Shown one piece after another: positions 12,965 through 37,951 of a stretch of 46,667 nt of DNA (position 1 is the first letter of the stretch; each line of letters starts with the position of its first letter). Source of the stretch: a virus; the IMG/VR virus record IMGVR_UViG_3300010400_000012, positions 1 through 46,667 of that record, one strand, 5' to 3'. The position numbers and the translations under genes were made by a program. Below the pieces are notes generated by a model. It was not told the origin of the DNA, did not search any database, and saw nothing but the letters and a program-made list of their open reading frames with translations.

Positions 12965-13603
12965 ATGGCCACCACAAAGCGCCCAGGCCTCCCGTACGTC
13001 TGGGTCACCTGGCTCACGAAGATTCTCGCCGGCGAAGGCCAGTGCCTCTATCAGCCATGGCTGAAGGCGCATTTTCGGTACGACAAGCGGCCGGATACCA
13101 CTTTCAATCTCGCGGCCTGGACGACGGAGCACGATGCGCTCGTCCAGACGCGCGCCGCGGAGCTCCGTCTCGAGGGCTGGGTGGTCACCCTCGAGCGGCA
13201 GAACGCGTTTCAACTCTTCGGCAAGAGCGCCATCCTCGCCGGCCAGCCGGATATCGTCGCCGTGCGCCCTGGCGAGACGCTCGTCGTCGACGGGAAAACG
13301 GGGCAGCAGCGGCACAGCGATCTCTGGCAGGTCCTCGTCTACATGGTCGTGCTGCCGCGCTGCCGGGAGAGCCTGACAAATATCCGCGGCGAGGTCTGTT
13401 ACAAGAGCCATCGGGTCCCCGTCGAGCGTGAGGAGCTCACGCCGGCGCGGGCCGAGGCGATCTACAAGCTCCTGCGCACGATCGCCGGCGAGCGGCTAGC
13501 GACCACGCCGAGTCAGAAGGAATGCGGCTTCTGCGATGTCGCGGACTGCGCCGATCGGTTCGTTGAGAGCGAGGCCGGGCGCGCCATGGCGACGGAGTTC
13601 TAA
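12965..13603 (+). CDS. Cas4-like PD-(D/E)XK nuclease with iron-sulfur cysteines
   Basis: 212 residues. A nuclease core is visible in GQPDIVAVRPGETLVVDGKTG (metal-binding Asp, then D-x-K) followed by the Q-rich helix QQRHSDLWQVLVYMV. Four cysteines fit the Cas4/AddB iron-sulfur pattern: Cys27 (GQCLYQPWLKAHF), and Cys187, Cys190 and Cys195 (ECGFCDVADC). Such nucleases resect DNA ends 5' to 3'. There is no CRISPR array or other cas gene, so it most likely works in phage recombination with the RecE-like enzyme next door. Confidence 0.8.
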   Translation: MATTKRPGLPYVWVTWLTKILAGEGQCLYQPWLKAHFRYDKRPDTTFNLAAWTTEHDALVQTRAAELRLEGWVVTLERQNAFQLFGKSAILAGQPDIVAVRPGETLVVDGKTGQQRHSDLWQVLVYMVVLPRCRESLTNIRGEVCYKSHRVPVEREELTPARAEAIYKLLRTIAGERLATTPSQKECGFCDVADCADRFVESEAGRAMATEF

Positions 13604-13605
13604 CC

Positions 13606-14490
13606 ATGGCGAAGGCCCCGACTGTCCTCGCACCTGGTATCTACGATCTGCCGGCGGCTGTCTATCATCAAGATCCCTGCCCGGAGCCGTCGCTCTCCTC
13701 GTCGATCGCGAAGTTGATCTGTCTCTCGTCCCCGGCGCACGCGCGCCAGGCGCATCCCCGGCTGAACCCCGCGGCCGTCGAAGAGGAGGCTGAGAAGTTC
13801 GACATCGGTACCGCCGCGCACGCCGTCCTCTTGGAAGGGACTGCGGCCGTCGAGATCGTCGACGCGAAGGACTGGCGGACCAATGCGGCAAAAGAGGCCC
13901 GCGACGCCGCGCGCTTGAAGGGCCGCACGCCGTTGCTCGCGAGAGTATGGGCGGATGTACAGGCGATGGTCACCGCCGCACGGGTGCAGCTCGATCGTCA
14001 CAAGGACGGCGGCGCGAAGATGTTCACCGCCGGGGAGCCGGAGCGCACGCTCATCTGGCAGGACGACGGCATCTGGTGCCGGGCGCGCGTCGACTGGCTG
14101 CGGCCTGACCCGGGGCCCTTCGCGCAGTGGGCGATCGACGATTACAAGTCGACGAGCGCCAGCGCGAACCCGGACGACTGGACGCGGACGATGTTCTCGA
14201 CCGGCTTCGACCTGCAGGCGGCGTGGTATCTGCGCGGGCTCAAACAGCTGACCGGTTTCGAGGGTACCTTTCGGTTCGCGGTTCAGGAAACCTATCCACC
14301 CTACGCGCTGTCTGTCATCTCGCTCAATTCCGACGCACTCATGATCGCCGAGAAGAAATGCCTGTACGCGCTCGAGGCGTGGCGTGCATCGCTCGAGGAC
14401 GGCGACTGGCCGGGCTATGCGCGGCGAACCTGCTACGCGACCGTGCCGCCGTGGCACGAGGCGTGGTGGCTCGAACGGGAGATGCAGTGA
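13606..14490 (+). CDS. RecE/exonuclease VIII-like PD-(D/E)XK exonuclease
   Basis: 294 residues. The N-terminal YHQDPCPEPSLSSSIAKLI followed by SPAHA is the signature start of the RecE C-terminal / DUF3799 family. Further on are DIGTAAHAVLLEG (conserved His), CRARVDWLR and AIDDYKSTSA (nuclease motifs about residues 160-182), then the GFDLQAAWYL helix. This enzyme degrades the 5' strand of duplex ends to leave 3' tails for annealing. It forms the recombination module with the Sak4-like ATPase at 15568 and the Cas4-like nuclease. Confidence 0.85.
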   Translation: MAKAPTVLAPGIYDLPAAVYHQDPCPEPSLSSSIAKLICLSSPAHARQAHPRLNPAAVEEEAEKFDIGTAAHAVLLEGTAAVEIVDAKDWRTNAAKEARDAARLKGRTPLLARVWADVQAMVTAARVQLDRHKDGGAKMFTAGEPERTLIWQDDGIWCRARVDWLRPDPGPFAQWAIDDYKSTSASANPDDWTRTMFSTGFDLQAAWYLRGLKQLTGFEGTFRFAVQETYPPYALSVISLNSDALMIAEKKCLYALEAWRASLEDGDWPGYARRTCYATVPPWHEAWWLEREMQ

Positions 14491-14582
14491 TGGACGACCA
14501 CCCGCAGATCCCGATGCCCGAGGTGCTCGCCGCGTTGCTCGTCGTGGCACTGATCGGCGTCCTGGCCTTCGGGAACTGCTGA
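14490..14582 (+). CDS. micro membrane protein between exonuclease and methyltransferase
   Basis: 30 residues. Start overlaps the exonuclease stop (TGATG) and its own stop overlaps the methyltransferase start (TGATG). One membrane segment (VLAALLVVALIGVLAFG) follows an acidic, Pro-containing head. Tight coupling on both sides is the main support. Confidence 0.5.
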   Translation: MDDHPQIPMPEVLAALLVVALIGVLAFGNC

Positions 14583-15568
14583 TGATCCTAGAACCAGAAA
14601 CGCCGATCGGTGGCTGGGCCGAGCATTCGTCGGGACTGATCGTGCCCGACTACGTCATCGAGCCGCCGCGTCCGATTGGGATTGACCTGTTCGCCGGATG
14701 CGGCGGCATGTCGTGCGGAATGCACCAGGGCGGCTGGCACGTCATCGCGGCGCTCGAGTTCTCCTTCGACGCGGCGGTCACCTACATGGTCAACCTCGCG
14801 CGGCCCGGTGTGCAGATTCATTTCGACAGCGCCGAGCGTCGCGAGGGGTTCGAGCGCCATCTCGAAAAACGGATGGGCCTCACGGCAGCGGAGCGGTCGC
14901 ACGGCCGGAAGAAGCGTGGCAAAAAGAAACGCAAGCACCGCAAGGTGCAGCGCGTGATCGAACCGCTGGTCGCGGGCTCTGGCTGGATCTCGTGTTTCGA
15001 CCAGTGCGACTGCCCGCCCGGGGCGCACGAGGGCATCGGCTACGACGGCAAATACAACGACTACCTCGCCGAGATCAACCAGCGCCCGGCGCACGGCCTC
15101 GGCTGCGAGCACTTCTGGATAGCGGACGCGCGCACAATCACAGGGAAGGAAATTCTCGACACGCTCGGAATGCAGCGCGGCGAGGTCGACTGCGTGTTCG
15201 GTGGTCCGCCGTGTCAGGGATTCAGCTTCTGCGGCCGCCGCAACGTCCTCGACCCGCGCAACAGTCTGGTCTTTGAATTTCTCCGGCTCGTGATCGAGAT
15301 CCATCCGAAGGCCGTCGTCTTCGAGAACGTGCCCGGCATGATGTCGATGACGACGCCAGAAGGAATTCCAGTCGTCGACGCCATGTGCCGAGTGTTGGAG
15401 GACGGCGGGTTCGGTGGCTACGACGCGCTGAGGCAATCGCTGCTCGGTGAGCCGACGAAGCGGCGTGGTGCGTTGCGCGGTCGACCGAAGCCGACGAAGG
15501 CTCTGCCCGACGACGAGGACACCGAGCCTGATCGGGAACCGTCGCTCTTCGAATGTCTGGAGGGCTGA
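14582..15568 (+). CDS. C5-cytosine DNA methyltransferase, C-terminally reduced
   Basis: 328 residues. Motif I (GIDLFAGCGGMSCGM, about 33-47), motif IV with the catalytic Cys (FGGPPCQGFSF, about 214-224) and motif VI (VFENVPGM) are intact. Between motifs I and IV is a large insertion holding a basic stretch (KKRGKKKRKHRK) and a Cys cluster (CFDQCDCPPG). The QRRxR-type motif VIII, the target-recognition domain and motifs IX-X are not found. The protein ends in an acidic tail soon after motif VI. Base transfer may therefore need a partner. Phage methyltransferases usually protect DNA from host restriction. Confidence 0.8.
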   Translation: MILEPETPIGGWAEHSSGLIVPDYVIEPPRPIGIDLFAGCGGMSCGMHQGGWHVIAALEFSFDAAVTYMVNLARPGVQIHFDSAERREGFERHLEKRMGLTAAERSHGRKKRGKKKRKHRKVQRVIEPLVAGSGWISCFDQCDCPPGAHEGIGYDGKYNDYLAEINQRPAHGLGCEHFWIADARTITGKEILDTLGMQRGEVDCVFGGPPCQGFSFCGRRNVLDPRNSLVFEFLRLVIEIHPKAVVFENVPGMMSMTTPEGIPVVDAMCRVLEDGGFGGYDALRQSLLGEPTKRRGALRGRPKPTKALPDDEDTEPDREPSLFECLEG

Positions 15569-29600: not shown

Positions 29601-31460
29601 ATGAAGAAGAAGAGCAAGAAGAAGGCAGCGCGCCGGCACCGAGTGAAGAGCGTGATTCGTCCACGCCCCAAGAAGGGCGGTCGTCCGCGCCTCAGCGATG
29701 TCGAGAAGGCGCGTCGTGGCACGTTGCAGCCGAGTCGGGCCCGGGACAGGAAGCCACCACGCCAGAGTCGAGTGTCCGAGCCACCAGCGACGCGACGGGA
29801 TTACGTTGGCATCGCGCGTCGGTACGCGGCCGATGTCCTCAGCGGAACAATAACCGCGGGCGTCTGGGTCAAGCTCGCCTGCGAGCGGCAGGACCGCGAC
29901 GCGATGCGCGCCGAAACCGATCCGAGCTGGCCGTTTGTGTGGTCCGACGCGCACGCGGTTGAGGCCTGCGCCTTCATCGAGCGACTGCCGCACGTAGAGG
30001 GCACCTGGTCCAGGCCGCTGATTCACCTCGAGCCGGCGCAGGTCTTCATCGTCACATTGCTCTTCGGCTGGCGTCAGCGGGCCCACCTCGCGCGCCGCCG
30101 GTTCACGGTCTTCTACTTCGAGCTCGGCCGGAAAGGCGCGAAGAGCACGCTGATGGCGGCGATCGCGCTGTTCCACGTGCAGCGCGAGCACGAGCCTGGC
30201 GCCAGCGTCGTGTGCGGAGCGACGACGGGATCGCAGGCGCGGATCGTCTTCGGCATCGCGCAAAAGATGGTGAACAACCGGATGTCGGCCTGGCTGCGCG
30301 CAGAGGGCGTCGAGGCGCTCGCCAACTCCATCATCACCAGCGATGGCTCCATTCGACCAGTCAACGCCAAGGCCTCGACACAAGACGGTCTGAATCCATC
30401 CTGCATCGTGCTCGACGAATCGCACGCGCAGAAATTTGCTCTGCATGACGTGTTGAAGAGCGCACAGGGCGCCCGGCTGAATCCGTTGCTGCTCTGTCCG
30501 ACGACCGCCGGGTATGACTTGCTGTCGGTTGGCTACGCGCTGCGCACGACGTTGACGAAGGTGCTCCAGCAGGTGTTCGAGGCCGATCACTTTCTTGGGA
30601 TTATCTACACGCTCGACGAGGGTGATGACTGGCGCGATCCGCTCGTCTGGGTGAAAGCCAATCCGATGCTCGGCGTCACGCCGACGCTCGAGTGGGTGCG
30701 CAGCTACTGCGCGGACGCGAAGCAGACACCTGGGATGGAGGGAGAGTTCCGCGTCAAGGTTTGTTCGGAGTGGATGCAGTCCGCCATGTCATGGCTATCG
30801 ATGACTCGGTGGGACGCCTGCGCGGATGACACGTTGAAACTGGAGGACTTCGCTGGGCAGCGGTGCTGGATCGGCGGCGACCTCGCACAGCTCGATGACA
30901 TCGCGGCGGTCGCGCTCGTCTTTCAAAGCGGTGAGGACTTGTGCGTGTTCACGAAGTTCTATCTCCCTCGCGGCGTGGTCGAGGAGCGGGCGCGGGCGGT
31001 TCCAGCCTATCAGTCCTGGGTGAAGGCCGGGATCTTGGACCTGACCGACGGCAATATGATCGACTACAGCCATATCGAAGCCGACGTGAGAGTCTGGTGC
31101 CAGACCTTCAACGTCGCCGCCCTCCGCTTCGATCAGTACGGGTCGGCCGGCATCGTCTCGGCGCTTGCGGCGGATGGCTTTCCGGCGGCCATCCTGGACA
31201 AGAATCGAAAGAACATCACGCCACCCGCACGCGAGCTGGAAACGCGCGTGAAGCATCGTCGGTTCCGTCATGACGGGAATTCCTGCCTGAAGTGGATGGC
31301 GAGCAATGCGGTCGTCACGCGAGGCGTGGATGATAGTCTCTTGCCGAAAAAGGAAAGCCCGGATTCACCCAACAAGATCGACGGGATCGACGCGCTGCTC
31401 CAAGCGATGAGCGCGATCACCATTGAACAGCCGACCGGCGTCATGGCGGAGTGGCTCTGA
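29601..31460 (+). CDS. terL: terminase large subunit
   Basis: 619 residues. Walker A (ELGRKGAKSTLMAA, about 173-186), Walker B (CIVLDESHA, about 268), then the RNase H-like nuclease: GGDLAQLDD (about 424), LRFDQYGSAG and KIDGIDALLQ with its Asp residues. The protein cuts concatemers and pumps DNA into proheads. The first 65 residues are an unusual basic leader with GRPRLSDVEKARRGTLQPSR, resembling the start of small terminase proteins. The ATG overlaps the end of the preceding short frame. Strong call. Confidence 0.9.
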   Translation: MKKKSKKKAARRHRVKSVIRPRPKKGGRPRLSDVEKARRGTLQPSRARDRKPPRQSRVSEPPATRRDYVGIARRYAADVLSGTITAGVWVKLACERQDRDAMRAETDPSWPFVWSDAHAVEACAFIERLPHVEGTWSRPLIHLEPAQVFIVTLLFGWRQRAHLARRRFTVFYFELGRKGAKSTLMAAIALFHVQREHEPGASVVCGATTGSQARIVFGIAQKMVNNRMSAWLRAEGVEALANSIITSDGSIRPVNAKASTQDGLNPSCIVLDESHAQKFALHDVLKSAQGARLNPLLLCPTTAGYDLLSVGYALRTTLTKVLQQVFEADHFLGIIYTLDEGDDWRDPLVWVKANPMLGVTPTLEWVRSYCADAKQTPGMEGEFRVKVCSEWMQSAMSWLSMTRWDACADDTLKLEDFAGQRCWIGGDLAQLDDIAAVALVFQSGEDLCVFTKFYLPRGVVEERARAVPAYQSWVKAGILDLTDGNMIDYSHIEADVRVWCQTFNVAALRFDQYGSAGIVSALAADGFPAAILDKNRKNITPPARELETRVKHRRFRHDGNSCLKWMASNAVVTRGVDDSLLPKKESPDSPNKIDGIDALLQAMSAITIEQPTGVMAEWL

Positions 31461-33904
31461 TGTCTAAACTCCAGCGGTATCGCGTCGTCCAGGATCACGA
31501 TTCGTGGCCGGCGCGCCTGGCTGAGTCATTCCGTTCGTTCTTGAAGGGACCCTACACGCTCTCGTCGCTGACGGCGAAGTACTTCAACGATGATGCGACG
31601 CCGAGCAGCACGGGTCTGAGCGTCACCCAGCAGACCGCCCTCACTTATTCCGCTTTCTTCGCCTGCGTGAACGCCATCTCGACCGACGTCGCTTCCTATC
31701 CCCTGATTCACTACAAACGCGCCTCGAGTGGGGGCAAAGACCGCTACACCGACTCCAGACTCTACCGAATGGTCCACGACGAGCCCAATCCGGAGATGAC
31801 CTCGTTCACCATGCGGCAGATGATGACGGCGCACGTATTGACCTGGGGAAATGCCTACGCGGAAATCGAGCGCGACCAACTGGACCGGCCGAAATATCTC
31901 TGGCCCATCACACCGGATCGGGTGACGGTAGACCGAGACCGCTCTGGCGGCGTCGTGTATCTGGTGGCGGCGCCGAGCGGCGGCGTTCCCGTCCCCATCC
32001 CGGCCGCAGACATGCTGCATCTTCCGGGGCTCGGGTTCAATGGGACCGTCGGCTATTCCGTCGTGGCGATGGCGCGGGAGAGCATCGGGCTCGGCTTGGC
32101 GACGGAACAGTTCGGGGGGACGTTCTTCGGCAATGGCGCGACATTCGGCGGTGTCGTGTCGTACCCTGGCGCGCGGCCGACCGAACTCTCAGATAAGAAC
32201 TACCGGGAAGCGCTCGAAGGAAAACATCAGGGCGTCCAGCGGGCGCACAAGCTGCTCGCGCTCTACAACGGGGCGAAGTACGAGCGGATGGGCATCCCGC
32301 CCAACGATGCGCAGTTTCTGGAGACCCGGCTGCACCAGGTCGAAGAGATGTGCCGCTGGTTTCGGATGCCGCCCCACAAGATCCAGCATCTGCTGCGGTC
32401 GACCAACAACAACATCGAACACCAGGGCATCGAGTACTACACCGACACGACGCGACCGTGGTGTGTACGCTGGGAACAAGAGTGCAATCGGAAGCTGATC
32501 TCGGCGCCTGAACGTCGGATTCAGTTCTTCGAACACATGATCGAGGGGGCGCTCCGCGGGGATCTCCCGAGCCGGTATGCCGCGTATGCCGTCGGTCGAC
32601 AGTGGGGCTGGCTCTCGGCCGACGACGTGCGCGACAAGGAAAACATGAACCCGCTGCCCGGTGGCATTGGGAAAGTTTATCTCCTGCCGCTGAACATGAC
32701 GCCGGCGGATCGCATCAACGAGATCATCGACAAGCAGGTCGCGCCCACGCCGGCACCGGCTCCACCGCCAGCGCCGAACGACGACGCCGCCGCGGCCGCG
32801 AATGCGCGGGCAGAGTTTGCGGAGCGCGCCGCCGCTGAAGCGCGCGCGCTCGCCCAGCAAGAACGCGAGCGACGGATTGCGGCGGAAGCCACTGGCACTG
32901 CGACGGCTGAGGAGCTCGCGCTGAGACGGACGTCAGAAGCCGGGGCGCTGGCGCTGGCCGCGCAGTTGACGCAGCTCTCAAGCGAACTGCGGGCACGGGC
33001 CGATCAGGAGGCGACCTTGCGTGCGGCGGCGGAAGCGCCTTGTTCGACCTGCAACGATGTCGGGTTGTTGCCGGAAGCCTATATGGGCGACCCGCAAGGG
33101 CAAGTCCCCTGTCCAGACTGCCCGATCGGCGCCAAGGTGGCTGCAGAAATCAAAGCAAAGACGTCCGAGCAGGCATGCGCTGGGCTTCGCGCGGCGGTTG
33201 CGACGAGCGAAACGGCGATGCTCGCGGCGCAGACCGCTCTCACGAACCTGACGGCTGAGCGCGATGCCATACAGGCGATCCTAGACACGCGCGCCGAGCC
33301 GGATCCGCGGCTCGCGGCTCTGGAAACCGAGATCGCCAAGTTGACCACCGTTGTCGCTGAGCGCACGGCACACGTCGAGGCCGCACAAGCGGCCCTGGCG
33401 GCAGCTGAGGCACGGGTCGCGGTAGAAACAGAGGCGCGCGCGGCGGCGGAAACGGCGACCGTAGCTGAGCGGCAGCGAGCCGCTGACCGAGACGCCGGCA
33501 TGATCGCCGCGCATCGCGCGCTGATTGTCGACGCGATGGGCCGGATGGTTCGGCAGGAAGTCTCCAAGGCTCGTCAGCACCACGCGACACCCGAGAAGCT
33601 GCGCCGGTGGCTGGCGTCGTATGACGTGCTCCACGAGCCGGTGTGTATCGATGCGGTGACGCCGGCGCTTCGGGCGCATCTCGCGTGGATGGGCTCGACA
33701 CAAGACGTGTCCGCGTTGGCGACCGACCTAGCCAAGACGCATCTCGCCGAGTTCAGACGGAGAGTCGGGGCCGCGCTCGAGACGGATCCGCAAGACTTCT
33801 CGGTCGTGCTCGATCGCGTGCTCGACGCCTGGGAATCGACGAGAGCCGATGAAGTGGCGACCGTCTTCATGCAGCGAGAGATTGACTATGCCCGAACACG
33901 CTGA
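31460..33904 (+). CDS. portal protein with long C-terminal extension
   Basis: 814 residues; HK97-type portals are about 400-430. Residues 1-420 hold the portal fold: LTYSAFFACVNAISTDVASY, EPNPEMTSFTMRQMMTAHVL, TWGNAYAEIERD, FFGNGATFGGVVSYPG, and TNNNIEHQGIEYYTDT. Beyond that are about 390 residues of Ala/Glu/Arg-rich coiled coil with a CSTC...CPDC zinc-like cluster at about 528-552, ending in a folded helical domain (RMVRQEVSKARQHHATPEKL). TGATG overlap with terminase. The extension may fuse a scaffold or internal head protein to the portal. Confidence 0.85.
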   Translation: MSKLQRYRVVQDHDSWPARLAESFRSFLKGPYTLSSLTAKYFNDDATPSSTGLSVTQQTALTYSAFFACVNAISTDVASYPLIHYKRASSGGKDRYTDSRLYRMVHDEPNPEMTSFTMRQMMTAHVLTWGNAYAEIERDQLDRPKYLWPITPDRVTVDRDRSGGVVYLVAAPSGGVPVPIPAADMLHLPGLGFNGTVGYSVVAMARESIGLGLATEQFGGTFFGNGATFGGVVSYPGARPTELSDKNYREALEGKHQGVQRAHKLLALYNGAKYERMGIPPNDAQFLETRLHQVEEMCRWFRMPPHKIQHLLRSTNNNIEHQGIEYYTDTTRPWCVRWEQECNRKLISAPERRIQFFEHMIEGALRGDLPSRYAAYAVGRQWGWLSADDVRDKENMNPLPGGIGKVYLLPLNMTPADRINEIIDKQVAPTPAPAPPPAPNDDAAAAANARAEFAERAAAEARALAQQERERRIAAEATGTATAEELALRRTSEAGALALAAQLTQLSSELRARADQEATLRAAAEAPCSTCNDVGLLPEAYMGDPQGQVPCPDCPIGAKVAAEIKAKTSEQACAGLRAAVATSETAMLAAQTALTNLTAERDAIQAILDTRAEPDPRLAALETEIAKLTTVVAERTAHVEAAQAALAAAEARVAVETEARAAAETATVAERQRAADRDAGMIAAHRALIVDAMGRMVRQEVSKARQHHATPEKLRRWLASYDVLHEPVCIDAVTPALRAHLAWMGSTQDVSALATDLAKTHLAEFRRRVGAALETDPQDFSVVLDRVLDAWESTRADEVATVFMQREIDYARTR

Positions 33905-34661
33905 CGCGCCCATTGAATACGCTATGACGCGGGCTGTCGGCCAGGACGGCACGTGGCGGGCGATCTCTCGACCAGCCGGGATCGTCGCGATGTCACGACG
34001 GATGTACGCCTGGCGGTCCAGTCAAGAGTTTTGCGCGCGCTGCGCCAAGCCGGCCACGGCCATCGTGAACCAGACGTCTTACTGTGCGACCTGTCGTTTT
34101 GAGCAGCGACAACGCGCGGCAGAGGCGTTGCCGTGGCATGGTCGGTCCGCACGACGCCCGGAACTCCGAGGCACCGAGCAGCCCATCATCACAGGGCATC
34201 CGATTGTGTTCGATTCGCGCAGCCTCGACCTCGGAGGATTTTTCGAGTACATCCGGCCGGAGGCCGTCGATCGGACCATTCATGAAAGCACCGATCTGCT
34301 GGCGCTTTGGAACCACAATGCGGATGTGCCGTTGGGCCGGTCGACTGGCGGCACGCTCGCCTATTGGAAAGACGGCAAAGGGCTGGCGATGTCGATCACG
34401 ACGCCGCGGTCGGCTGGGGCCGTCGTCGAATCGATCGAACTCCGGACGGTCACCGGCGGCTCGTTCGCGTTTCGGACTGTCGATGACGCGTGGCACATGG
34501 AGGATGAGATCCCGATCCGTGAAATCCTGGACATGAAGATCAGCGAATTGAGCCCGGTCGCATTTCCCGCGTATCCTGGAACGGATGTGCAGGTCGGCAA
34601 ATCAGGGAAACATTCGAGGGAGTGGTGGGAACGGTTGCACCGTACCCAGCTCGCACGCTAG
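33888..34661 (+). CDS. HK97-family prohead protease with N-terminal zinc domain
   Basis: 257 residues. From about 105: IITGHPIVFDSRSLDLGGFF, ALWNHNADVPLGR (catalytic His), GGSFAFRTVDD and ISELSPVAFPAYPGT (catalytic Ser region) define the S78 prohead protease. It cleaves the capsid protein's delta domain and itself during head maturation. Residues 1-90 are extra: a basic head and a CARC...CATC zinc-ribbon-like module (about 59-80). The portal stop overlaps its start and the glycosyltransferase starts 40 bases before its end. Confidence 0.85.
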   Translation: MPEHADAPIEYAMTRAVGQDGTWRAISRPAGIVAMSRRMYAWRSSQEFCARCAKPATAIVNQTSYCATCRFEQRQRAAEALPWHGRSARRPELRGTEQPIITGHPIVFDSRSLDLGGFFEYIRPEAVDRTIHESTDLLALWNHNADVPLGRSTGGTLAYWKDGKGLAMSITTPRSAGAVVESIELRTVTGGSFAFRTVDDAWHMEDEIPIREILDMKISELSPVAFPAYPGTDVQVGKSGKHSREWWERLHRTQLAR

Positions 34662-36121
34662 CGCGGTGGACGGCCGCGCTGGCAGCCGTCTGCGCTCAAC
34701 GGAAAGCCTGGGCTCAGACGGAATGGCTCGTGCGGCGCCTGCTACGCTCCGGGTACCACACACCAGAAGTCTATCGAGCGCTCGGTATGGCGCTGGCGCA
34801 GCTCGGTCGCACGCCTGAGGCCATCGAGTGTTACCGGCGAGTCCTGGCCCTGAATCCGCACGCGGTGGCGACGCACGACGCCCTGATTCTGTTGCTGGAC
34901 GTGCAGCCGAGCACGACGTTCAAGCAGGCGCAGGCCGAACGCCGGCTCTGGTGGCGTCGACACGGCGCAGCCATCTATGCGCGGCGGCAGCCGCATCCGA
35001 ATGATCGGGATCCCGATCGGCCGATTCGCGTGGGGTATGTCTCCGGCGATTTCCGTGCGCACTCCGTCGCGCTCGCGATCCATCGGTTGATTCTCAGACA
35101 CAGCGAAGCGATCGTTCCGTTCTATTACTCGTCGGTACCGTCGCATCTGCACGATCTGGTCACGAAGGATTACGCGAGCCATCCTGGCTGGCGCGACGTC
35201 GCGCGGCTGAGCGATGCAGCTCTTGCGGATCTGATTCGTCGAGACCGGATCGATATCCTCGTTGACCTCTCCGGTTATACACCGTGGAATCGTCTCTTGA
35301 CGTTTTGCCGCGCACCGGCGCCGATTCAAATCACGGCATTTGGCTATGCGACCGGTGTGGGCTGGCCGGCGATGCAGTATCTGCTCGCCGATCCGGTGGT
35401 CATTCCTTCTGCGGTCCGGCCGCAGTACGTTGAAACGGTGATCGATCTGCCGAGTCTGCTGTGGTACGACGGGATGGACGAAAGCCCTCCGGCCAATCGG
35501 TTACCCTGCCTGACGCGTCCGCAGACGTTTGGCGTCTTTCAGCGGTCGGCCAAGTTGCACGAGCCATTCTTGCAGCTCTTGGCCGCGCTGCTGCGAAGGC
35601 TTCCCGAGAGTCGACTAATATTCAAGGACTCCACGTACAACGCCTCGGTCCGCGCGTGGATTCGTCGCGTGATGGGCGACACGGCCCAGCAGCTCGTGTT
35701 CCGCGGCGCGAGTCCGCACGTCGATCACCTGGCGGCCTACCACGAGATCGATCTGACGCTCGATACCTACCCGCAAACCGGCGGTGTCACCAGCTGCGAA
35801 ACACTCTGGCAGGGCGTACCGCCGATGACCCTCATCGGAGAGCGGATGATTCAACGCACGACCGCGTCACTGCTGACGACGCTCGGACTGACGGACTTCA
35901 TCGCGATGACGCCAGAGCAGTACATCAATCGCGCGGTCGAATGGGTCACAACAAGACGTCTGGAGTTGTCGTGGATTCGGGAACATCTCCGGCCAACGAT
36001 GGCGGCCTCTCCTATTTGTGCAGGCTACGGCGCGGCGGTCGAAACGATCTACCGTGACATCTGGCGGCTTTCGTGCCACACTGATCGAAACCTGAGCGTT
36101 CAGACCGTCTCGGCTACCTGA
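34622..36121 (+). CDS. GT41-like O-GlcNAc transferase (OGT/SPINDLY family)
   Basis: 499 residues. A short TPR region (VYRALGMALAQLGRTPEAIE, CYRRVLALNPH, about 50-80) leads to a two-lobed GT-B transferase: RVGYVSGDFRAHSV (His147 equals the conserved catalytic-site His of OGT), IDILVDLSGYT, RAPAPIQITAFGYATGVGWP, DYLLADP-type YLLADPVVIP, FGVFQRSAKLHEPFLQLL (Lys311 equals the essential UDP-binding Lys), LTLDTYPQTGGVTSCETLWQ and GERMIQRTTASLL. These are the order and spacing of GT41 enzymes, which move a sugar from a nucleotide sugar to Ser/Thr. It is placed between prohead protease and major capsid protein, so a virion protein is the likely target. Confidence 0.85.
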   Translation: MVGTVAPYPARTLARWTAALAAVCAQRKAWAQTEWLVRRLLRSGYHTPEVYRALGMALAQLGRTPEAIECYRRVLALNPHAVATHDALILLLDVQPSTTFKQAQAERRLWWRRHGAAIYARRQPHPNDRDPDRPIRVGYVSGDFRAHSVALAIHRLILRHSEAIVPFYYSSVPSHLHDLVTKDYASHPGWRDVARLSDAALADLIRRDRIDILVDLSGYTPWNRLLTFCRAPAPIQITAFGYATGVGWPAMQYLLADPVVIPSAVRPQYVETVIDLPSLLWYDGMDESPPANRLPCLTRPQTFGVFQRSAKLHEPFLQLLAALLRRLPESRLIFKDSTYNASVRAWIRRVMGDTAQQLVFRGASPHVDHLAAYHEIDLTLDTYPQTGGVTSCETLWQGVPPMTLIGERMIQRTTASLLTTLGLTDFIAMTPEQYINRAVEWVTTRRLELSWIREHLRPTMAASPICAGYGAAVETIYRDIWRLSCHTDRNLSVQTVSAT

Positions 36122-36259
36122 AACGGTCCTGTTCGCGATAGCACCGTCCACCATCCCCGGCTACCTGGGCGTGGTCGACACGGCGAATTCATTTCGCCTG
36201 TTGATCAACGCCCTTTGCATTTTTGGGCGCTTCCCTCAGGCGATCCACGAGGGAAGAGC

Positions 36260-37951
36260 ATGGACAAGCATCGAGTCACCGTCGTCCCCTTCATGCTGGC
36301 GTTCATGGCGGGTTTGCTCGCCATGCCGACCAACGTCTATCAGATTTGCGCGTGGAATCACGGCACCGAAGAGATTGAACCGTGGCGCTCGCGAGCCTCG
36401 ACAGCGATCCGCGCGGTGACGCGTGCGATTTCGCAGTGGTTCGCCACGTTCTGGACGCCGCGCGTCCGGTTGCTCTGTGCCGCGATCGTGCTCGCCATCG
36501 TGGTGAGTCAGCTCACGGGTCATGCGCAGCACGCTCCATTCATCGCCGGCCTGACGATTCAGGATCTGCTCCAGGAAAAGGGACAGCTTGCCGAGCAGGC
36601 GAAAGCCCTCATCGGGGAGAACGGCATCCGGTCTGAGGATGAAGGCAACTTCAACACGATTCACGAGAAGATCGACAAAATTACCAAACAGGTCGAGATG
36701 CTCGCGAAGCAGGATGCAGTAGATAGGAGCCTCACAGAATCGCAGGGCCGACGCAGCGACCCGAACCCACTCGAAGAGCGCAGCCAGCCGACCTATCGCG
36801 GCAGCCTGGGAAAGATCACCGAACGCGACCGCACTGAAGCTCTGCGCACCTGGATGTGCGCTGGCAGCGCCGAGTTCGAGGCGACACCTCAGCAACGCGA
36901 ACATGCGCGCCGTTGCGGGATCAATGTGGACTCCAAGCGGCTCCTGATCCACATGTTCGCGCCGAAGGCCATGCGGACTTCTGAGTGGCATGCGGGCGCG
37001 GAGGCGTTTCGGCCGAGCGTTGACGACAAGCGCAGTTTCCAGGCGCATATCGATGAGGAACGCGCGGCGCTGACCGGGTTGCAGTCCACCACGACGACCG
37101 GCGGGTACACGGTGGCCGATGAACTCATGCGGTCGCTCGAAGTGGCGCTGTTGGCGTTTGGTGGCATGCGCTCGGTCGCCACGGTCATCCGTACCGATAC
37201 CGGCGGCCCGCTGCCCATCCCGACGACGAACGACACGGCGAACAAGGGCGTGATCATCGGTGAGAACACGACCACGACCGAGCTCGAAATGACCTTCGGG
37301 CAGCTCGTGCTGGACGCCTGGAAGTACAGCTCCAAGTACATCCTGGCCTCAATGGAGTTCCTGCAGGACACCTCGATCAACGTCTCGGGGTTTCTCGGCG
37401 AAGCCCTCGCCAATCGTATCGGGCGCATTCAAAACGATCACTTCACGACCGGCAGCGGGTCGCAGCCGAACGGGATCGTGACGGCCGCCACCTCGTCTGG
37501 CGTGACGTTCGCCGGCTCGGCGACGGTCAGTTACGACAACCTGGTGGACCTGGTGCATTCGGTGGATCCGGCCTATCGCTCGAACGGTCGGTTCATGTTC
37601 CACGATGGTGCGCTGAAGATGATCAAGAAGGTCAAGGTGCTGCAGTACTCCGGTGACACCACCGGGATGCCGCTGTGGGCGCCAGGGCTGACGGCGGGAC
37701 AGCCAGACACGATTCTCGGGTATCCCTACGTCATCAATCAGTCGATGACGACTCCCGCGACGACGGTCAAGTCGATCCTCTTCGGCGATTTCTCGAAGTA
37801 CATCATTCGCGATGTGCGGACCGTCGAAGTGCGACGACTGGATGAACTCTTCGCGCTCCTTGGCCAGACAGCCTTCCTTGCGTTCGCACGCGCGGACGGC
37901 GATCTGCTCGATGCGGGCACCAACCCGGTCAAGTACGGCACGCAAGCCTAA
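36260..37951 (+). CDS. HK97-type major capsid protein with hydrophobic N-terminal extension
   Basis: 563 residues from ATG 36260 with GAGGGAAG upstream. The capsid fold starts about residue 250-270: GLQSTTTTGGYTVADELMRS, GGPLPIPTTNDTANKGVIIG, ITTTELEMTFGQLVLDAWKY-type strands, NDHFTTGSGSQPNGIVTAAT, DTILGYPYVINQSM and LFGDFSKYIIRDVRTVEV. Residues 98-150 are a charged coiled coil like the HK97 delta (scaffold) domain. Unusually, residues 1-95 add two membrane-like segments (about 7-28 and 69-84). The start has a good ribosome site, so the extension is probably made and removed by the protease. A later GTG start (near 36502) is possible. Confidence 0.9.
   Translation: MDKHRVTVVPFMLAFMAGLLAMPTNVYQICAWNHGTEEIEPWRSRASTAIRAVTRAISQWFATFWTPRVRLLCAAIVLAIVVSQLTGHAQHAPFIAGLTIQDLLQEKGQLAEQAKALIGENGIRSEDEGNFNTIHEKIDKITKQVEMLAKQDAVDRSLTESQGRRSDPNPLEERSQPTYRGSLGKITERDRTEALRTWMCAGSAEFEATPQQREHARRCGINVDSKRLLIHMFAPKAMRTSEWHAGAEAFRPSVDDKRSFQAHIDEERAALTGLQSTTTTGGYTVADELMRSLEVALLAFGGMRSVATVIRTDTGGPLPIPTTNDTANKGVIIGENTTTTELEMTFGQLVLDAWKYSSKYILASMEFLQDTSINVSGFLGEALANRIGRIQNDHFTTGSGSQPNGIVTAATSSGVTFAGSATVSYDNLVDLVHSVDPAYRSNGRFMFHDGALKMIKKVKVLQYSGDTTGMPLWAPGLTAGQPDTILGYPYVINQSMTTPATTVKSILFGDFSKYIIRDVRTVEVRRLDELFALLGQTAFLAFARADGDLLDAGTNPVKYGTQA

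Follow-up and report, generated by a model that had tools for sequence, protein, structure and literature searches.

GT41 is the enzyme family responsible for O-glycosylation of proteins within plant and animal cells, to which it attaches single sugars; it includes O-GlcNAc transferase (OGT) and SPINDLY (SPY) (PMC10027727). The donor signatures of these two enzymes differ at three positions, K689/A731/Y744 in SPY versus L866/R904/C917 in OGT; SPY K689 contacts guanine, and OGT has leucine at the same position (PMC10027727). The residue at SPY Y744 / OGT C917 was argued to set the size of the sugar site, and K665 is essential in SPY (PMC9715652, also the source of the SPY residue numbering).

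Glycosylation of phage particles has been described in mycobacteriophages Che8 and Rita, whose capsid and tail-tube subunits carry glycans (Freeman 2023, as reported in PMC11256854, PMC10877033 and PMC12619734). According to the accounts in PMC11256854 and PMC12619734, phage-encoded glycosyltransferases act on these proteins; the locus described here resembles such systems as far as genes alone can tell. In the relative Maravista, the glycosyltransferase genes are situated close to the 3' genome end (PMC11256854). Here, on the other hand, the GT41 gene is located in the head operon, and some relatives add a sugar pathway.

The window, that is, the whole 46,667 bp stretch analysed, is the record of an uncultivated virus, a soil phage. 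Its early region contains two adjoining PD-(D/E)XK nuclease-like genes, one Cas4-like and one of the DUF3799 type (12965-14490). The head genes are all on the plus strand: the terminase large subunit (29601..31460; phrog_9, 4e-134), the portal protein (31451..33904; PF04860, 2.3e-96), the prohead serine protease (33849..34661; PF04586, 1.6e-30; phrog_80, 7.8e-33), a GT41 glycosyltransferase of 499 aa with an open frame and a GTG start (34622..36121; PF13844, 3e-29), and the HK97-type major capsid protein, which is the candidate acceptor (36260..37951; PF05065, 7.4e-64). The start of the capsid gene at 36260 was inferred via comparison of conserved leaders. The protease ORF ends at 34661, 40 bp into the GT41 gene, and the PF04586 and PF05065 matches of the two neighbours agree with the first-pass annotation, which had placed the gene between the prohead protease and the major capsid gene.

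The gene overlaps suggest late co-expression and translational coupling. We consider it fairly probable that the GT41 protein is a late cytoplasmic glycosyltransferase putting sugar on a virion protein during assembly. The enzyme would be made late, alongside the head proteins, and would modify Ser/Thr residues of a virion protein before or during assembly. The acceptor would most likely be the major capsid protein, encoded next on the same message, or otherwise another head or tail protein. Candidate benefits would be shielding, stability or adsorption.

The assignment of the ORF to GT41 is far past chance level as judged from sequence. The Glyco_transf_41 profile scores 102 bits against a cut-off of 25, and TPR_2 matches residues 48-80 (2.5e-8). 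In the PDB, the best sequence matches are SPY (1e-65), Thermobaculum OGT (7e-54) and human OGT (9e-35). NCBIfam gave no informative match for this protein and PHROGs gave no match, and therefore the enzyme is named by Pfam, PDB and fold. The AlphaFold (AF2) model, built from 47 window and locus sequences, has a mean pLDDT of 93.4. It contains a short TPR region (residues ~10-94, from the Pfam match and model helices) followed by a GT-B fold, with N-Cat at residues ~131-276 and C-Cat at ~300-486. The top solved structure found by Foldseek is SPY (TMq 0.88, E 5e-36; PDB 7y4i, 8dtg), the plant protein O-fucosyltransferase, which is thus nearest both in sequence and in fold. It is followed by TtOGT (5djs; 0.87) and XcOGT (2jlb; 0.77), which share the TPR and GT-B architecture and have a similar size; both are encoded on chromosomes. 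Human OGT superimposes with a TM of about 0.68 and about 19% identity in the structural alignment. As modelled, the ORF is a complete TPR-GT41 enzyme, predicted to be soluble.

The catalytic positions are conserved. Alignments equate His147 (codon 35060..35062, plus strand) with OGT H498 / SPY H495, and Lys311 (35552..35554, plus strand) with OGT K842 / SPY K665. Among the 35 viral and 68 bacterial homologues sampled, the histidine is kept in 34 and 65, respectively (99/103), and the lysine in all 103. The first-pass annotation correctly identified these as the OGT active-site positions; however, Lys311 need not bind UDP, as had been assumed. Its claim that all main GT41 elements are present stands, but the intervening domain of metazoan OGT is absent from the window enzyme. 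The first Pfam stretch of this enzyme stops at profile position 224, and in the GT41 phage relatives profile positions ~225-366 are skipped between two Pfam stretches.

The donor pocket is not that of OGT. On the nucleotide side it is of the SPY type: Lys335 (35624..35626, plus strand) aligns with SPY K689, where OGT has leucine, and Ala372 aligns with SPY A731. The window enzyme has no equivalents of human Leu866, Arg904 and Cys917, the UDP-GlcNAc signature of the OGT clan, and on the basis of its K335, A372 and Q385 we rejected an OGT-type donor specificity. On the sugar side, Gln385 (35774..35776, plus strand) occupies the sugar-selecting position of SPY Y744 / OGT C917. Thus the tyrosine signature of the GDP-fucose-using SPY clan is not found either, and SPY Thr747/748 are replaced by Gly/Val. 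TtOGT and XcOGT have tyrosine at the SPY 744 position (PMC9715652). All 35 non-redundant viral GT41 enzymes have Q, H or I at position 385; Tyr, Phe and Cys are common in the 68 sampled bacterial enzymes, and none of these three occurs in the viral ones. The label of O-GlcNAc transferase originally given to this gene is not supported, as the nucleotide side of the pocket is SPY-like and Gln385 belongs to neither OGT nor SPY. Because Lys335 is present and there is no arginine at the OGT R904 position, the donor may be a purine-linked nucleotide sugar. The transferred sugar would then not be GlcNAc, and probably not fucose.

IMG/VR was scanned for relatives, using a GT41 alignment and the capsid protein as queries, and all ORFs were then searched with profiles. 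Back-translated peptides of the window GT41 protein by itself gave no relatives; they were recovered with an alignment of this protein with SPY and TtOGT. The order portal-protease-GT41-capsid was observed in 11 further non-redundant contigs (L203, L206, L209, L221, L224, L226, L227, L228, L233, L236, L244), and a twelfth relative, L225, breaks off past the GT41 gene. Hence, when conservation of the place was checked, the gene was present in the same slot of at least 12 other uncultivated phages. Six of the 11 contigs were also fetched with the capsid protein alone, and therefore these are no artefact of GT41-based searching. In five of the 12 relatives the protease stop and the GT41 start share 4 bp, and in four more the two lie within about 7 bp of each other. 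The slot enzymes of the 13 phages are 36-50% identical and retain the active site; lysine at position 335 is present in 13/13 and alanine at position 372 in 8/13. In a quick, unrooted maximum likelihood tree of 105 proteins, with bacterial rows drawn from the best 80 matches of one scan, all 13 slot enzymes share a clade of 19 viral rows (SH-aLRT 97), which contains none of the 68 bacterial rows. TtOGT groups with bacteria outside this clade; XcOGT was not in the tree. A glycosyltransferase gene is thus conserved among structural genes, as expected of a phage virion-glycosylation system.

In other members of the capsid clade the same slot contains different genes. L031, L041, L053 and L175 have a GT4-like glycosyltransferase (PF13524) paired with either a GT2-like enzyme or a methyltransferase, the GT2-like calls being made by reading the sequence, with no Pfam match to a glycosyltransferase. 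A TylF-type methyltransferase fills the slot in L026 and L028, and a B12-binding radical SAM enzyme in L044 (2345-3733) and L046 (5510-6937). The slot is unfilled, with at most a short gap, in 43 of the 75 operons of this clade examined. GT41 is missing from most relatives, and therefore it is an accessory gene. As the contents of the slot vary and many relatives have none, the gene could be a neutral passenger (moron) in a permissive slot, with no role in the particle. We regard this as highly unlikely, since the active site has been conserved at 36-50% identity across 13 phages, there are stop and start overlaps, the phage enzymes form a clade of their own, and the slot has been repeatedly occupied by glycan- or protein-modifying enzymes. 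An attempt to find the host among Acidobacteriota yielded a moderately close capsid (39%) in one of 396 genomes, where the protease-capsid gap is short (L257).

The presence of other modifying enzymes in the slot supports glycosylation of a virion protein. On the other hand, examination of the structural proteins of the window for Ser/Thr-rich acceptor tails or an acceptor motif gave nothing decisive, and the lack of a standout motif counts against this reading. So does the short TPR region, which leaves limited space for a peptide groove as long as that of OGT. With no acceptor identified among the structural proteins, one could assume that the enzyme has a host protein as its target in late infection, serving takeover, lysis timing or counter-defence, and that its place in the head operon merely reflects late expression. 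Indeed, the GT41 members OGT and SPY act on intracellular proteins (PMC10027727). However, in 12 other phages the gene has the same fixed place between protease and capsid, and elsewhere this slot is refilled by other modifying enzymes; both observations point to a local substrate. Besides, an enzyme made late would scarcely have time to affect the host. A host target thus seems unlikely.

Glycosylation of a virion protein is further strengthened by the conserved head-operon slot combined with a phage-borne sugar pathway in three relatives. In the GT41 phages L233, L236 and L203, a heptose-type nucleotide-sugar pathway is encoded between terminase and portal. In L233 it comprises an NAD-dependent epimerase, an RfaE domain II-like nucleotidyltransferase, an RfaE domain I-like kinase and a GmhA-like SIS isomerase, next to which lie a radical SAM-SPASM enzyme and a two-subunit E1-type thiamine (TPP) enzyme. 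The best NCBIfam matches, all under the curated cut-offs, are TIGR02199 for the nucleotidyltransferase (1.4e-33), TIGR02198 for the kinase, and PRK13936 and TIGR00441 for the isomerase; the epimerase is nearest to GalE, with ADP-heptose epimerase matched too. Thus the heptose nucleotide pathway (GmhA, HldE, HldD) provides best or near-best matches for four L233 genes, but these lie between terminase and portal, and the radical SAM-SPASM and TPP enzymes are additions to it. L236 has the same gene set in the same order before the portal gene; in L203 the set is rearranged and has no radical SAM match. An overlapping contig, L014, links kinase, portal, protease, GT41 and capsid. The coordinates of terminase-portal loci with the pathway, the radical SAM enzyme and the two-subunit TPP enzyme are 1142-6142 in L233, 4987-10676 in L253 and 4315-8450 in L254. 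Parts of the set also occur near more distant viral GT41 genes (L010, L011, L012, L015, L017, L021).

Judging by gene content, L233, L236 and L203 seem to produce a heptose-type sugar themselves, and this suggests that phages of this type coat their own particles with sugar. No sugar-pathway genes were recognised within the window, and hence the window phage would tap a host nucleotide sugar as the GT41 donor. Residue 385 is isoleucine in the three slot enzymes that have the cassette, and glutamine in the ten with no detected cassette, absence being weak evidence because many contigs are fragments. In the GT41 tree the three enzymes with Ile385 belong to a single subclade, so the match may reflect a single evolutionary event, and the connection of residue 385 with the cassette is suggestive only. 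A broader possibility, which we put forward as tentative and somewhat short of an even chance, is that a widespread lineage of soil phages has self-contained particle glycosylation in the head operon, with the slot as an exchange site and residue 385 matched to the supplied sugar. It would consist of a phage GT41 lineage, some members having a heptose-type NDP-sugar pathway to which radical SAM and TPP enzymes add tailoring steps, and the capsid or another head protein would be glycosylated while being made.

Many relatives contain a second cassette downstream of the neck genes, formed by a GT2-like and a GT4-like enzyme, in some cases with a radical SAM-SPASM enzyme between them, as in L036 (12167-14959), L042 (9755-12419), L060 (8388-11034) and L067 (3360-6006). 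In the GT41 phages L206, L226 and L244 it is present as two glycosyltransferases. These GT2/GT4-like enzymes, together with the heptose genes, are also of types used for lipopolysaccharide, and serotype-converting phages encode glycosyltransferases. The GT41 enzyme might accordingly modify a glycan, either a host surface polysaccharide, leading to superinfection exclusion or receptor change, or another phage-made glycan. This is very unlikely, as TPR-bearing members of GT41 transfer sugars to proteins, and the modelled enzyme is a soluble protein of TPR and GT-B parts; besides, a lysogen does not normally express the late head genes.

The most improbable of the alternatives is glycosylation of modified bases in phage DNA. 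Some phage glycosyltransferases do act on DNA bases (Pyle 2024, as cited in PMC12619734), and the window encodes a C5-cytosine methylase (14384-15568). However, such methylases were undetected in the slot-GT41 relatives searched, most of which are fragments. A Tet/JBP hydroxylase (PF12851), the partner enzyme that would hydroxylate the base, was found neither in the window nor in 20 other records, a weak argument given that the control genomes were silent as well. Finally, the GT41 fold with TPRs is a protein-acceptor architecture.

Two different queries gave no GT41 matches in 50,697 phage records, whereas the same search found the family in 94 plasmid records. No GT41 was present among the viral structure models of BFVD (best TM 0.48-0.49), and a literature search for phage GT41 returned only one entry in the CAZyme table of a vinegar virome (PMC9602057). 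This agrees with the earlier remark that no described case of a GT41 gene in a capsid operon was known to its author. Both GT41 and phage virion glycosylation were already known; as far as we searched, what is new is the joining of the two, the slot in the head operon and the associated sugar pathway. If the prediction of virion-protein glycosylation is true, particle glycosylation would extend past the mycobacteriophage cases, and there would be small TPR-GT41 enzymes with a new donor specificity. With GT41 fixed in the capsid operon, the reason for soil phages to cover their particles with sugar would become open to testing, and the exchangeable slot offers a ready route to more protein- or glycan-modifying enzymes.

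The leader of the capsid gene contains a candidate regulatory structure, the hairpin CTTCCCTC-(11 nt)-GAGGGAAG (36230..36256, plus strand). It stands directly upstream of the start codon, and the Shine-Dalgarno box of the capsid gene is in its 3' arm. The hairpin was also observed in the leaders of L026, L041, L052, L057, L206, L227, L244 and others, and its arms change together (TCCCTC/GAGGGA, TTCCTC/GAGGAA). In mononucleotide shuffles the mean fold z is -2.2 for 66 distinct capsid leaders and about 0 for the portal, protease, connector and terminase leaders. The structure thus rests on fold energies and on arm changes seen by eye, the sequence-only alignment of the leaders being too gappy for covariation counts. 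A search of Rfam with the hairpin gave no match. The structure resembles an element controlling translation of the capsid gene, and the conserved hairpin is predicted to sequester the capsid ribosome-binding site in this clade.

The capsid gene of the window has about 95 extra in-frame codons (36260-36550) between the conserved start and the usual N-terminus. This segment contains two hydrophobic stretches and is absent from all relatives compared. Three contigs, L091, L093 and L094, have two capsid-family genes (PF05065) each, one of them upstream of the copy that matches the window.
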